Origin: a virus
Length of the DNA stretch: 28,417 nt
Strand: one strand, 5' to 3'
Virus record (IMG/VR): IMGVR_UViG_3300033153_006029
Location: 1 to 28,417 of that record
A program made the position numbers and the translations under genes. Positions 7,804-28,417 of this stretch are shown here, in pieces (position 1 is the stretch's first letter; each line of letters opens with the position of its first letter). The notes below the pieces were generated by a model. That model saw only the letters and a program-made list of their open reading frames with translations, had not been told where the DNA came from and did not search any database.

Positions 7804-8450
7804 TACTTAATTCCTTTGGTAATTTCTTGTCTCACGATATTATCTATTTCTTGATCGATTGTCTCTAAGGCTCGTAAAACAAAATTGTCGCTTGCCGTTC
7901 CTGCGAATTCAGGAGGCATTTGCCATGAACCACCTGTTTCAACCATAATGCCAAGCCCTGTTCTGCTTCGCCTGTGAAATCCACTGCTAAAAGTATAATC
8001 TCTTATAATCGCACCTGAGCCTTCATGCAATAACCAACGTAACCAGTCTATGGGTATCAACTCCCCTTCGAAATTAGTGTAGAAATAGGTTGCCTCTGGC
8101 ATAGTTAGTACGTCACTGTAATCAGCCTGTATCATTCTTATCGATAAAGAACCAAACTTTCCGGCCACAGCGTTGTATTGGACTTGAATCCCCTGAGCCC
8201 ATTGGTTGATCACAGCATCAATTACAGAGGGGTCAGGAACTCCTAATTCACCCTGTAATCGTCCTCCAAAAAACTCGTGATATATATCGGAGGTTTTTAA
8301 CAAACGCTCCACAGAGCCTTGTACACGGCTCGTGACTTGAGTCACAACCCCTTTGATGCTTCGCTTGAAAGCCGCATTAATTTCTCTCGTAACGCCTGCT
8401 CTAAACTCAGCTGCGAACCTAGGCAATATTATTGAAGCTTTTAGTACCAT
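7803..8450 (-). CDS. Neck/tail completion protein (215 aa)
   Basis: An in-frame ATG exists at 8504, but I prefer the ATG at 8450 because it overlaps the preceding stop as TAATG, the same junction as at 7803, and avoids a 50-base overlap. The N-terminus (MVLKASIILPRFAAEFRAGV) is helical and amphipathic. The centre carries IDWLRWLLHEGSGAIIRDY followed by RSRTGLGIMVETGGSW and PPEFAGTASDNFVLRAL. These GSG/SGxGIM/FAGT elements resemble minor capsid or tail-completion proteins encoded just after zinc-knuckle neck proteins in other phages (recollection, not a search). Role: probably head-tail joining. Confidence 0.6.
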   Translation of the reverse strand: MVLKASIILPRFAAEFRAGVTREINAAFKRSIKGVVTQVTSRVQGSVERLLKTSDIYHEFFGGRLQGELGVPDPSVIDAVINQWAQGIQVQYNAVAGKFGSLSIRMIQADYSDVLTMPEATYFYTNFEGELIPIDWLRWLLHEGSGAIIRDYTFSSGFHRRSRTGLGIMVETGGSWQMPPEFAGTASDNFVLRALETIDQEIDNIVRQEITKGIK

Positions 8451-8971
8451 TATCCAATTCTCTTCCACATGCAAACAACGAAATCGTCGGAATCTAGACC
8501 ACAAGGCTGTGGCTCAGATGCACGAGTATATCGATGAGTGCCATATCCGGCTATATTTGTAGCTACTATTAACTCTTTCGCTCTCTTTAGTTGTGGTGTG
8601 CGATCAGCAAAAGTTAGGACTTGAATGTCTCCTTCGGCGGTATTCACTGTACCCACATTGAAAAAATCTTTCTGTTCCCAGACAACCATCAAGTTCATCG
8701 TTTCCGAGCTCTCCACTCCACGTTTACCGGCACCTTGGCACATCGGACATAAGCCTCCGAAAGGAAAGGGTAGATAACCGCCATCTTGAAAACGATTAGA
8801 GGACTTGTTGCCTATAGGATCAAACACACAATTAGGACAATCCTCATACCTCGTTGTTCCATACGATAAAGTACAAGGAATAGTAAGTCCATCATCATAC
8901 AACATCGAAGAGATGATATTGACGAAAGTCGCCTTAATGCCGTTCGAAATTAAACCAGAAAAATTACTCAT
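8450..8971 (-). CDS. Zinc-knuckle neck protein (173 aa)
   Basis: A 173-aa protein with CPNC (residues 45-48) and CPMC (75-78), spaced to coordinate one zinc ion in a zinc-ribbon-like insert; the second pair continues as CPMCQGAGKRG, a glycine knuckle. Cys33 lies near the first pair. The flanks are beta-rich (LMVVWEQKDFFNVGTV; IQVLTFADRTPQL) and the C-terminus ends DDFVVCMWKRIG. Its start overlaps the end of the 52-aa gene, and its stop overlaps the next start (TAATG), so it is part of a coupled set of neck genes. Zinc-containing proteins of this shape occur in the connector region of some phages. A structural, zinc-stabilised joining role is inferred. Confidence 0.6.
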   Translation of the reverse strand: MSNFSGLISNGIKATFVNIISSMLYDDGLTIPCTLSYGTTRYEDCPNCVFDPIGNKSSNRFQDGGYLPFPFGGLCPMCQGAGKRGVESSETMNLMVVWEQKDFFNVGTVNTAEGDIQVLTFADRTPQLKRAKELIVATNIAGYGTHRYTRASEPQPCGLDSDDFVVCMWKRIG

Positions 8972-23908: not shown

Positions 23909-24613
23909 CTATTGCACATTACCGATGGTGTCGAAATAATCATTCTCACTACCAAATTCAATTGCCGAAAGCCCCGTATGTACGGGGGGATATAGACCTG
24001 TTAGAATAGCTAAATCAGTCACTTGGTTGAGAAACGGCAACACCTGCTGTTTTACACAGATGATCGGAGAGTGGATAGTCGATAGACAAGGAGCAGTGTT
24101 GACTGTCTCCTTGCAGACCATCCATGTTGTGACTGCATAGCAAGCTTCGTCGTCGCACCTTACTCCGGTAATAGTTGCTGCACATTGGCCTCTCCATGTG
24201 CAAATGTAACGGTCGATTGTCGGTTTGAAGAACGGAAAGATACCAGTTATATAAACAGCGTCATCTTCGTTCAGCTCACCCGTTGGTCCAACGTAGCCAT
24301 CGATAGTGACAGAGAAGGTACAATTAGTTTCAAAGGCCTGTCGTGCCATGATTTCCACACAAGGCCGTGCCTTACCACTTTCACATGTAACAGCCAAAGC
24401 CTCCACACCTATTATAAAATTATCATCACAAAAACCCGACTCGGCCCCTGAGGTTCGAAATAAGTCAGCCTTTATTACAGTTGGATTTCCATAGGGCCGT
24501 CCACGAGCATCTATGCAAAATCCTGTCGGATGCGTAAACGTGGTGTCAGTAGCACCGTTGCATGCACAGGCACACAGGGGGTCAATGTCTCTATGAAGCC
24601 TTAGGCCTGCCAC
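23909..24613 (-). CDS. Cysteine-rich tandem paralogue, copy 3
   Basis: Third of three related genes between terminase and portal. The start is GTG at 24613, aligned with the ATG of the other copies and behind the same CTTTGGAG site; the TTG-initiated version five codons longer is unlikely because that codon lies inside the Shine-Dalgarno site. Product 234 aa; residues 2-33 are nearly identical to copy 1 (VAGLRLHRDIDPLCACACNG). Conserved motifs across copies: FCDDNF, TCESG, NCTFSV.IDGY.G, CAATITG, PCLS and HTGLS.I.FG. Over a dozen cysteines line up. No signal peptide or membrane segment. Body closer to copy 2 but 5' end closer to copy 1, suggesting gene conversion. Function unknown; virion surface or disulfide-stabilised structural protein is a guess from context. 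Confidence 0.7.
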   Translation of the reverse strand: MAGLRLHRDIDPLCACACNGATDTTFTHPTGFCIDARGRPYGNPTVIKADLFRTSGAESGFCDDNFIIGVEALAVTCESGKARPCVEIMARQAFETNCTFSVTIDGYVGPTGELNEDDAVYITGIFPFFKPTIDRYICTWRGQCAATITGVRCDDEACYAVTTWMVCKETVNTAPCLSTIHSPIICVKQQVLPFLNQVTDLAILTGLYPPVHTGLSAIEFGSENDYFDTIGNVQ

Positions 24614-24633
24614 AATATTTATCTCCAAAGAAG
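24512..24633 (-). repeat. 122-bp repeat at start of paralogue copy 3
   Basis: This block covers the ribosome site, start and first 33 codons. Counted by eye it differs from the copy at 25961-26082 at only 4 positions, and from the copy at 25242-25363 at about 16. Confidence 0.85.
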
Positions 24634-24659
24634 CTTTTGAATTACTTAATCATCATCAC

Positions 24660-25343
24660 CTATTGCAAGTCGTCATCGGTGAAAACATCATCCTCACTAC
24701 CAAATGCAATTGACGAAATCCCCGTATGTACGGGGGGAAATAGAGTTTGAAAAAAGTCTAGATCAACGACTTGGTTGAGAAACGGAGTCCCTACATATTT
24801 TACACAGCTGATCTTCTCTTTGTTACGCGATATACAAGGAGCAACATCGACTGTCTCATCGCAGACCATCCATGTTGTGATTTTATAGCAAGTTTCGTCG
24901 AGGCACCATACTCCTGTAATAGTTGCTGCACATTTGCCTATATATCCACAATGGTAAGGGCGGGTTGTCGGTACACTGATTAGGTAGATACCGGTTATAT
25001 AGACACCGTCATCTACGTTCAGCTCACCCGTTGATCCAACGTAGCCATCGATAACGACAGAGAAGGTACAATTATCCACAACAGCGACCTCTTCACCGCC
25101 ACCGGTTGGGCATCGCTGTGGCTGACCACTTTTACACGCAGTAACAAAAGTACCCAGATCTATTAGAAAATTATCATCACAAAAACCCGCCTCGACTCCT
25201 GAGGTTCGAAATACCTCAGTCTTCGTGAAAACTGGTGTGTTTATGCACAATCCTGTCGGATGCGTAAACGTGGTATCAGTAGCACCGTTACATGCACAAG
25301 CACATAATGGATCGATATCCCTATGAAGTCTTAGGCCCGCCAT
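24660..25343 (-). CDS. Cysteine-rich tandem paralogue, copy 2
   Basis: Middle gene of the triplet, 227 aa, starting at ATG 25343 with TTTGGAG nine bases upstream. The N-terminal LCACACNGATDTTFTHPTG block matches the flanking copies. Middle and C-terminal regions align best with copy 3 (both have PFLNQV, then a Leu-rich segment, then PPVHTG and an acidic FGSE end). The segment between about 33 and 90 is variable in length and sequence (here PTGGGEEVAVVDN). The 5' nucleotide block differs from copies 1 and 3 at about a dozen mostly synonymous sites, so this copy diverged earlier or escaped homogenisation. Same unknown function. Confidence 0.7.
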   Translation of the reverse strand: MAGLRLHRDIDPLCACACNGATDTTFTHPTGLCINTPVFTKTEVFRTSGVEAGFCDDNFLIDLGTFVTACKSGQPQRCPTGGGEEVAVVDNCTFSVVIDGYVGSTGELNVDDGVYITGIYLISVPTTRPYHCGYIGKCAATITGVWCLDETCYKITTWMVCDETVDVAPCISRNKEKISCVKYVGTPFLNQVVDLDFFQTLFPPVHTGISSIAFGSEDDVFTDDDLQ

Positions 25344-25363
25344 AGTGTTTATCTCCAAAGAAG
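25242..25363 (-). repeat. 122-bp repeat at start of paralogue copy 2
   Basis: Second instance of the shared 5' block. It differs from copy 1 at about 12 positions by eye, nearly all synonymous; the 5' leader is identical to copy 1. Confidence 0.85.
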
Positions 25364-25375
25364 CTTTTGAATTAC

Positions 25376-26062
25376 TTAATCGTCATCATCATCATCACCA
25401 AATGTAATTGACGAAAGGTCTGTATGCACTGCGGGAGTTAGACCTATCCAATAGTCGAGTGTCGTGTCACCAAACGCGTCGACCAAGATCTTATCTTCGT
25501 ATTCCCGTGCCGGAGTAACATGTTTAATGCCGTCAATCCTTGTTATGGTCTCTGACAGACAAGGGGCAGTGTTGGTTCCCGAACAGGTAATCCACGCTGA
25601 GGTTTTATAGACAGCTAAAACGTCACAAGGTAGTCCAGTAATAGTGGCTGCACAAGTGGCTACATATCTACAAATAAAAGGGTTAATGCCCCCCCAGGCT
25701 TGACTAATAGGAATACCAGTCATATAAAGGACTTGATCTGCGTTCAGATCACCAGATGGTCCAGCGTACCCATCGATAGTGACAGAGAAGGTACAACTAT
25801 CCTTAAGGGGTAGGTAAGATCTGTACTCACACCTTTGTGGCTGACCACTTTCACATGTAACAACCTCAACACTCAAACGTATTAGAAAATTATCCTCACA
25901 ATCCTGCAAGCCTGTGGTTCGATATAAAAGCTGATCATCTATTCGTAGTCCACGATCTTGTATGCAAAATCCTGTCGGATGCGTAAACGTGGTGTCAGTA
26001 GCACCGTTGCATGCACAGGCACACAGGGGGTCAATATCTCTATGAAGCCTTAGGCCTGCCAT
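25376..26062 (-). CDS. Cysteine-rich tandem paralogue, copy 1
   Basis: First gene after the terminase, 228 aa, starting at ATG 26062 with TTTGGAG nine bases upstream; a TTG five codons further up lies inside the ribosome site. Cysteines at 14, 16, 18 and 33 precede many more (NFLIRLSVEVVTCESGQPQRC, DSCTFSVTIDGYAGPSGDL, TCAATITGLPC). The C-terminus ends in six aspartates. It is the most divergent body of the three, with a different 160-205 region. The beta-type strand spacing and paired cysteines suggest a compact, disulfide- or metal-stabilised domain. Tandem triplication in the head-gene region suggests surface-exposed virion proteins, but nothing in the sequence proves it. Confidence 0.7.
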   Translation of the reverse strand: MAGLRLHRDIDPLCACACNGATDTTFTHPTGFCIQDRGLRIDDQLLYRTTGLQDCEDNFLIRLSVEVVTCESGQPQRCEYRSYLPLKDSCTFSVTIDGYAGPSGDLNADQVLYMTGIPISQAWGGINPFICRYVATCAATITGLPCDVLAVYKTSAWITCSGTNTAPCLSETITRIDGIKHVTPAREYEDKILVDAFGDTTLDYWIGLTPAVHTDLSSITFGDDDDDD

Positions 26063-26124: not shown

Positions 26125-28417
26125 TTAATTACTGCGGATCACTTTGACCGCTTTTGGAGAATAGCTTGCCCAATGTTGCGGACCAACATACATAGGCTTA
26201 TTGGGGTCTACGTTAATACTTCCGACCTGAGCGATACGTCCTACTCCAACATAGGCGGGTGGAGTGATTTCTCTTTGAATAGACCGTGCTAGCATATTAA
26301 CGATGACCAGAGCACTATAACGATCCTTTCTCATACGACCTTTCTTGCCTGTCTTCAATTTGATCTCAGGAGTATCAAACCTTTCTCTGCCTGACGCTGT
26401 ACGACTCATGGTGATAGTGGAAAGTTCCGTTTTCAGTTCTTCTACCTCCATAACACAATCTTCCAGAGTGTCATATAATTTCAAAGCTGGACTATCACCA
26501 AGTCGCTCCTTAAGCTTCTTAAACTGGATCTTATCATGTTCAGATACCAAAGACAATGTTACATTATCAAAACGAGGAAACAAAAGCACCTTGTCTTCCA
26601 TGTCTTTACGCAGGCCATGATTAGCTTTAGAGGTCCATTCGGCACTGGCAAACTGAATTAAGTCGATAATATGATCTCCGTCTAGCAAGTCGGTATCGGC
26701 TTCTTTCTTGTCATTTATGATAGGCAGCAGAGGACGTTCGCCTGCAAGGATCTTATCCTTATCTCTTAGGCCTTCGGCAATAACATAGCCACCTCCTTGA
26801 GAGTCAATACCTATACCTACACACGGAAACAGTCGATACAAGTCACGAATCTTTCTCACACAGAATCCATAGTAGTCATCTGAGTCTGTAAGGCCAAGCT
26901 TTTTTCGGGTACTAAAGTCTTTCTTGTTAGTAGTCCATACATATGCTATACGATGATGCTCAGGATGTAACTCTATAATCACAATGGCAAAGTTATCATT
27001 TTCAGACGCAGGATCAATTCCAAAGACATATTGTTTACCAGCACGTCCCTTTGTAATTATTTCAAACGGATCATCACACCATTGGGGCCAACCTGACTTC
27101 GCAAGATTTTTATCGGTAGCTGTAGCCCCCTCAATCAAGGTACGCTTAAAGAAACCCTGAGAATCTTTGGCGAAACATGCTGAATATTCCATAATAAAGA
27201 TACCACTATGCATAGTAGCCCGAGAACGAGATACTTGTTGATCATCCATAAACCCTTCGGGAATCAACTCGTAAGGAATGCGAATTATTGAGAACTCCCC
27301 TCTGTCAAGACGCTCCATATATTCGGGCATGCCTTTCTCATTTTCTACTTTTTCTTCGTCATCTCCAAACGCACTATCATAGCCCTCTCCCTTAATCATC
27401 TTTTTGTATACTCGCCAATAGTCAGCATACGGTTCGAAGTCATAGCCCGCAGTACCGGACAAGATAGATTGATTCTTATGACGACTTTTATAACTCTCTT
27501 CTTGATACTCCGTCCATACGTCATCCGCTTTCATCGCGTTACGCCGAAATGCTTCTTTCACGTTCTGTGCTGGGTCTTTGTGTACAGAGGCAAAACCTGC
27601 TACAACTGTTTCATAGATCTCTACCGGGATGGAATTAAATTCATCGGCTATAACGGTATGAGCACGTAAACCACGTATCTTTGTATTGTGTGAGAAAAAC
27701 CCATTTGCACAATACTCATGCTCGTCTGGCACATGTACGTCGTATGTAGCCGCCTTGCCATCAACGATAGACTCTACTTCATCATAGTAGATGTCTGGAT
27801 CGTTTAATTCTTCAATATGAGATACTCCTTTTGCGTTCATATATTTAGCACAAAAGTCAGTAATTAAATCACGAGTTGCTTCTTTACGATCTTCAATTTT
27901 ACTAGCACTAATCTTAGGCATCGCCACTCTTCTATTATCTTTAGCTATAGCCGTCATAGTAGGGATAAGGCCTGGGATAATATCTCCAGCGGACACCTCT
28001 CGTATCTTATCTTGCATCCCAGCGTCAAATATTCTTCGCTTACGAGCAAGACGGAAATTTATCCTCTCATAAAATAATCGCACATCCTTGCCAGTAATCA
28101 ATAGTTCATAAATAGTATTCCAATTTTCATTCCTATCCCTTGATGTCTTGTAGGCTACTATACCAAAATGAAGAAGAAGATAATGCATTTGATCAATTAA
28201 GCGTTCCGATGTATTGGTAAAGCCTATTGTTATTCCTGTTCCACCTTTAGCTGTTTGGACCTGTATATGCCCATCGGTATCATATAGTGCTGAGAGACAA
28301 GCTGAGACAGCTTCTTTAGACGACGATAGAATAGATTGAGGAATAGTTTTGTCTTTTGCATAACACTTATCTGTCAGTCCGTACCTACTTAGAAAGTTAG
28401 CCTTCTTTTCTTTGCCA
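26125..28417 (-). CDS. terL: Terminase large subunit, intein-containing (5' end beyond window)
   Basis: Motor that packages and cuts phage DNA. The reading frame is open past 28417; an internal Met at 28188 is not the start. Bases 27685-28416 encode intein, and the C-extein (519 aa) starts at Thr 27684. C-extein motifs: Walker B with catalytic Glu in HTVIADEFNSIP (D14, E15 counting from the Thr), the ATPase coupling motif SILSGTAGYD (76-78), then an RNase H-like nuclease with VFGIDPASENDNFAIV (D224), GIGIDSQGGGYVIAEGL (D294) and GRMRKDRYSALVI (D454). Walker A and the N-extein lie outside. All key nuclease acids are present, so the protein should be active after splicing. It is followed by the cysteine-rich triplet and portal. 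Confidence 0.93.
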   Translation of the reverse strand, partial: GKEKKANFLSRYGLTDKCYAKDKTIPQSILSSSKEAVSACLSALYDTDGHIQVQTAKGGTGITIGFTNTSERLIDQMHYLLLHFGIVAYKTSRDRNENWNTIYELLITGKDVRLFYERINFRLARKRRIFDAGMQDKIREVSAGDIIPGLIPTMTAIAKDNRRVAMPKISASKIEDRKEATRDLITDFCAKYMNAKGVSHIEELNDPDIYYDEVESIVDGKAATYDVHVPDEHEYCANGFFSHNTKIRGLRAHTVIADEFNSIPVEIYETVVAGFASVHKDPAQNVKEAFRRNAMKADDVWTEYQEESYKSRHKNQSILSGTAGYDFEPYADYWRVYKKMIKGEGYDSAFGDDEEKVENEKGMPEYMERLDRGEFSIIRIPYELIPEGFMDDQQVSRSRATMHSGIFIMEYSACFAKDSQGFFKRTLIEGATATDKNLAKSGWPQWCDDPFEIITKGRAGKQYVFGIDPASENDNFAIVIIELHPEHHRIAYVWTTNKKDFSTRKKLGLTDSDDYYGFCVRKIRDLYRLFPCVGIGIDSQGGGYVIAEGLRDKDKILAGERPLLPIINDKKEADTDLLDGDHIIDLIQFASAEWTSKANHGLRKDMEDKVLLFPRFDNVTLSLVSEHDKIQFKKLKERLGDSPALKLYDTLEDCVMEVEELKTELSTITMSRTASGRERFDTPEIKLKTGKKGRMRKDRYSALVIVNMLARSIQREITPPAYVGVGRIAQVGSINVDPNKPMYVGPQHWASYSPKAVKVIRSN
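27685..28416 (-). other. Intein (C-terminal 244 residues) with LAGLIDADG endonuclease
   Basis: Protein-splicing element inside the terminase frame. Its end has the classic C-terminal splicing blocks: YDVHVPDEHEYCANGF (block F) and GFFSHN followed by Thr+1 (block G), with penultimate His and terminal Asn. About 45 residues from the window edge is KTIPQSILSSSKEAVSACL followed by ALYDTDGHIQ, which fits the second LAGLIDADG motif (DTDG acids) of a DOD-type homing endonuclease. The N-terminal splicing blocks and first LAGLIDADG motif lie beyond 28417. Splicing would join the N-extein to TKIRGLRAH just before Walker B. Whether the endonuclease is active cannot be told from this half. Confidence 0.9.

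Follow-up and report, generated by a model that had tools for sequence, protein, structure and literature searches.

Small, acidic, cysteine-rich proteins of a new family, carried as one-gene cassettes at two late-operon sites of uncultured phages

We describe small, acidic, cysteine-rich proteins of a new family, which are carried as one-gene cassettes at two sites of the late operon in uncultured phages that are distant relatives of Bacillus phage G. We consider, at about even odds (a probability of roughly 0.5), that they are accessory proteins which are exchangeable and diversifying, have a conserved N-terminal anchor and probably sit on the virion exterior. The exterior was favoured because these proteins combine a constant N-terminus with a variable, cysteine-braced body, reside at late-operon sites, are exchanged as single genes and are easily lost. 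The family is defined and countable: it has two insertion sites, its empty site can be compared exactly with an occupied one, and selection on it leaves a signal that can be measured.

The window analysed here is a whole IMG/VR viral contig of 28,417 bp; it is a genome fragment, and absences beyond the contig are uninformative. The family was recognised from three neighbouring genes located between the terminase and portal genes, and the features of this region are given below.

26125..28416, minus strand: terminase large subunit, C-terminal extein and partial LAGLIDADG intein; its 5′ end is off the contig; upstream border of the site
25376..26062, minus strand: cysteine-rich paralogue 1 (P1), 228 aa, 13 Cys, ATG start
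25961..26062, minus strand: N-terminal block of P1, codons 1–34, with CACAC-x14-C; near-identical in P2 and P3
24660..25343, minus strand: cysteine-rich paralogue 2 (P2), 227 aa, 15 Cys, ATG start
25242..25343, minus strand: N-terminal block of P2, codons 1–34, conserved
23909..24613, minus strand: cysteine-rich paralogue 3 (P3), 234 aa, 15 Cys, GTG start
24512..24613, minus strand: N-terminal block of P3, codons 1–34, conserved; its DNA is near-identical to that of P1
21721..23877, minus strand: putative portal, assigned mainly from position and conserved synteny, with a very weak PHROG match; downstream border of the site

The operon in the window runs in the order terminase, triplet, portal, a 508-aa protein, a cement-like protein, the major head protein and the tail genes up to the tape-measure protein. 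The terminase matches those of Bacillus phages at 22.6%, and of the sequenced phages only Bacillus phage G has a head protein that matches, at 20% identity. In IMG/VR, 368 relatives of the portal (80 were kept) and 123 of the head protein were found. The major head protein had no relative among the bacterial or archaeal genomes searched, and hence no host is named. An intein that carries a LAGLIDADG homing-endonuclease domain splits the terminase gene (27688–28416, minus strand; Pfam 7e-18), and at this point the terminases of two relatives, L087 and L088, are uninterrupted.

The original prediction of three paralogues of about 230 aa, having an invariant N-terminal block and aligned cysteines and differing in length and sequence between the conserved blocks, was borne out on all these points. 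P1, P2 and P3 are ~53–62% identical in pairwise comparisons, their N-terminal 33 residues are the same save for 1–2 changes, and each of the 13 P1 cysteines occupies a column that is invariant across the three proteins, with segments of varying length and sequence in between. Cysteine makes up 5.7–6.6% of their residues, against 0–1.3% in nearly all the remaining genes of the window. The three ORFs are intact, internal stops being absent from every copy, and the start of each is preceded by one common ribosome-binding stretch, TTTGGAGATAAA. A chance or assembly artefact was considered and rejected: a separate contig, L004, which is the window's own phage in another assembly (portal 100% identical), has P3 adjoining the portal, and homologues occupy the same place elsewhere. 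Downstream of P2 (24643–24665) and P3 (23893–23914) we also observed the stretch CAATAGGT..TGATTAA, which is similar to the end of P1 (GATGATTAA-like) and suggests that the C-terminal end may have been remodelled after duplication.

Next, relatives of the triplet were sought. Neither P1–P3 nor the other family members had a match of value in Pfam, PHROGs, NCBIfam, PADLOC, PDB sequences or INPHARED phages, in agreement with the earlier failure to recognise a family; in particular, the profile searches gave no match to a known non-virion enzyme or regulator. The PADLOC defence models gave no hit at E 0.1, so none of the members matched a known anti-phage defence protein there. Direct searches with the triplet were empty in IMG/VR (patterns LCACACN and TDTTFTH), INPHARED and PDB, searches with individual members returned only copies from the same phages, and a terminase pattern scan of viral contigs gave 0 matches, the patterns being probably unlucky. 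Further, divergent members surfaced only through neighbour-anchored searches, in the vicinity of the terminase and portal genes of relatives. Aligned by hhalign to these other members, the window triplet gave P 1.5e-8, whereas the best of 30 column shuffles gave 0.046 and reversed sequences 0.13. The triplet and the other members are therefore related far beyond chance. As far as sequence comparison goes, the family is new to every library searched.

All 12 complete members have the motif CxCxC-x(n)-C at the N-terminus, with a gap of 3–21 residues between the third and the fourth cysteine. Elsewhere in the loci examined, the motif was found in just 2 cysteine-rich ORFs, both lying on the other strand from the structural genes and probably chance occurrences. 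The members contain 11–18 cysteines each, are all acidic (pI 4.05–4.86), and lack both a strongly hydrophobic stretch and a signal peptide. Outside the window, most members have at their C-terminal end a motif resembling Q..YP.Q.GVY..G, which the window triplet does not have. A motif so constant could bind a metal (zinc, iron–sulphur or other), and the proteins would then act as metal-dependent late factors instead of being displayed with disulfide bracing. We regard this as improbable, since the spacing of the third and fourth cysteines varies, the majority of the cysteines lie outside the motif block and differ in number, and no metal-site profile was matched in Pfam or PDB sequences. As a separate observation, the structural operon of the window encodes a 173-aa protein (8450–8971, minus strand) with two CxxC pairs (CPNC and CPMC) among its 7 Cys; it has a counterpart of equal length, also with 7 Cys, in phage G006, and from this sequence pattern it is possibly zinc-binding.

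We then compared the terminase–portal gap across the relatives. Among 96 loci with distinct portals the gap was empty in 88 (median 58 nt) and occupied in 8, which upheld the expectation that this place normally holds nothing, and the copy number in related phages was found to be 0, 1, 2 or 3. The occupied sites hold one member in L023 and L087/L160, two in L188 and three in L088/L090; in L011, L091 and L138 the copies at the site are cut by the contig end. Together with the window, the occupied loci all belong to a single, well-supported clade of 15 (9 occupied and 6 empty), and the tree requires three or more changes of state. L030, which carries a copy at the second site described below, is empty at the terminase–portal site and is nested between the occupied L023 and L011. 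At the DNA level the close relatives L030 and L023 are distinguished at this site by precisely one ORF: where the site is empty, GAGGTTAAAA is followed directly by TAAATTG (portal start), and where it is occupied, GAGGTTAAAA is followed by TAAAATGGCT...GGAGGATTC and then by TAAATTG. From these junctions, the inserted gene takes over the ribosome-binding site of the portal and supplies a GGAGG for the portal in its place. This pattern is explained equally well by gains in L023 and L011 and by a loss in L030. The lack of the gene in L030 indicates that it has been dispensable at this site in evolution, as does the empty gap in most relatives.

Morons are single-gene insertions between conserved phage genes, usually having their own promoter and terminator. 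The cassettes described here are like morons in being precise, ORF-sized insertions between two conserved genes that are absent in relatives. Unlike morons, the cassette at the L030/L023 indel borrows the ribosome-binding site of the portal, and the family also forms tandem arrays and diversifies.

These genes change rapidly compared with their neighbours. Between L188 and L088 the terminases are 99.6% and the portals 98% identical, whereas the cysteine-rich proteins are only 29–54% identical and differ in copy number. Within the triplet, the claim that these are diversified proteins found support in the contrast between the conserved N-terminal block and the body, in which omega lies at 0.6–1.3, although recombination between copies can distort such values. 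In the N-terminal block (33–34 codons) omega is 0.02–0.03; the comparison of P1 with P2 shows 11 synonymous changes and 1 non-synonymous change (omega 0.02). In the body it is 0.63 for P1/P2, 0.66 for P1/P3 and 1.28 for P2/P3. This contrast is significant in the pairs with enough changes (Fisher, 2e-5 for P1/P2 and 1e-6 for P2/P3), and purifying selection on the N-terminal 33 codons is strong. A pair of second-site members, L171/L175, has an omega of 1.16 versus 0.26 in its four neighbours (p 1e-4). Positive selection is only suggested by these values because the bootstrap intervals include 1 (0.86–1.99 for P2/P3 and 0.62–2.5 for L171/L175). The DNA of P1 and P3 is near-identical at the 5′ end only (pS 0.04), unlike the remainder, which points to gene conversion or recombination as the probable source of this match.

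Relaxed constraint may also be compatible with the omega data. The proteins could be near-neutral passengers, that is, duplicated genes decaying under weak constraint, as the values near 1 in the bodies of some pairs and the easy loss would allow. However, cysteine columns in the variable body are retained more often than other columns (p 0.001–0.025). This preference, the strong purifying selection on the N-terminus, the lack of stops inside any copy and the repeated occurrence in distinct lineages leave this explanation with very little likelihood.

The bodies were also examined by structure prediction. The better of two AF2 models (13 sequences; pLDDT 66, pTM 0.66) is all-beta, its N- and C-terminal parts being uncertain; the second was worse (pLDDT 60). 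Foldseek searches with the better model against PDB and BFVD gave nothing below E 0.001, and the weak matches were generic beta-sandwich folds. On the basis of this model, the body of the family is probably all-beta.

A constant end with a variable, probably beta body recalls the head decoration proteins Hoc of T4 and pb10 of T5. Hoc joins a conserved capsid-binding domain to variable Ig-like domains (PMC10385173). Hoc and pb10 are accessory virion proteins, as the present family is proposed to be. The family also differs from both in being cysteine-rich, with no sequence match and no Ig-domain profile in Pfam, PHROG, NCBIfam or PDB sequences, and from Hoc in that its constant end is N-terminal instead of C-terminal.

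The second precedent is offered by the internal proteins IPI–IPIII of T4, which have a conserved N-terminal targeting sequence and divergent, exchangeable bodies, are poorly conserved in relatives and have been linked to an arms race with the host (PMC9026906). By analogy, the family members might act inside the host, whether they enter it by injection after packaging in the head or are synthesised late, and would block variable host defences or keep competing phages out; the N-terminus would then serve as a tag for capsid targeting, and the body would follow changes in its host targets. Presence and absence together with fast turnover fit such an arms race, and a position in the structural operon also fits host-acting accessory genes. 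The tag of the T4 proteins, however, is ~10 residues long and is removed proteolytically, whereas the block described here spans 33 residues and is based on a cysteine motif. In relatives, internal proteins of the T4 type have been described as basic (PMC9026906), unlike the uniformly acidic members of this family. So many cysteines would also be odd in a reducing cytoplasm, and the second site is found downstream of the tail genes rather than with the head genes. We therefore hold a role inside the host, which is the main alternative to display on the virion, to be possible but unlikely. The system, judged by sequence, appears to resemble in kind the known exchangeable accessory virion genes (Hoc, pb10 and internal proteins) and to be a member of none.

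If the proteins are indeed displayed on the virion, they would be made late, alongside the structural proteins, and the conserved N-terminus would dock onto a constant virion partner. The beta body, variable and braced by cysteines, would then be exposed outside the head or the tail, where its disulfides could form after lysis and where it would meet variable partners, for example the host surface. New copies would arise by tandem duplication and cassette swapping, while recombination would spread the conserved 5′ end among copies. Counting against display are the normally reducing cytoplasm in which the proteins are made, their lack of a signal peptide and the low-to-moderate confidence of the predicted fold. 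Cysteine-rich virion proteins that lack a secretion signal are unusual, and hence the oxidation or metal state of these proteins is of interest.

Were the proteins on the particle, the family would show at which points such phages alter their contact with hosts, and surface diversification would proceed through single-gene cassettes, not through retroelements or shuffling of tail fibres. As in the targets of diversity-generating retroelements, hypervariable phage proteins here keep a conserved part; unlike those targets, the family varies over the whole body, with indels, synonymous changes and exchange of whole cassettes. We put forward only tentatively, as a rather doubtful extension, that it represents a new class in which the CxCxC anchor plugs interchangeable cysteine-braced bodies into the head, the tail or both, giving a swappable surface repertoire with no retroelement.

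The second site was located at the end of the tail operon. Whole-record searches gave two further members, in phages G006 and G010, where each is the last gene of the structural operon and is followed by genes in the opposite direction. Both show full-length homology to the L023 member (blastp 1.7e-25), and they directly follow a giant tail protein, which in G010 has 3083 aa with 85 Cys, and a 108-aa protein. This neighbourhood could suit a chaperone-like helper for the assembly or folding of the cysteine-rich tail protein. But the second site is empty in L192, L194, L196 and L197, in which the tail protein and the small gene are retained, the other site adjoins head genes, and a helper would be expected to be conserved, yet omega is ~1. 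Hence, we find such a helper very unlikely. In another phage, G002, which likewise retains the tail protein and the small gene, the second site has an unrelated 215-aa protein with a signal-peptide-like start (L195, 824–1471, minus strand).

The neighbours of the second site have features of their own. The giant tail proteins (L181, 7832–17083; L180, 26–5926; L186, 1–5574) reach 3083 aa and 85 Cys, contain repeats of the form FGTGL....C...V....SG...C and have no Pfam or PHROG match; kinship of the family with these repeats was considered and rejected (best E 0.1). Directly 3′ of the giant tail protein, loci L190–L205 encode proteins of ~80–110 aa with a C-terminal sequence like CGC.KRK.FLNK.FPYR. 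Small proteins of this type occur as tandem pairs in phages G007, G011 and G040, and G033 has a distant second copy.
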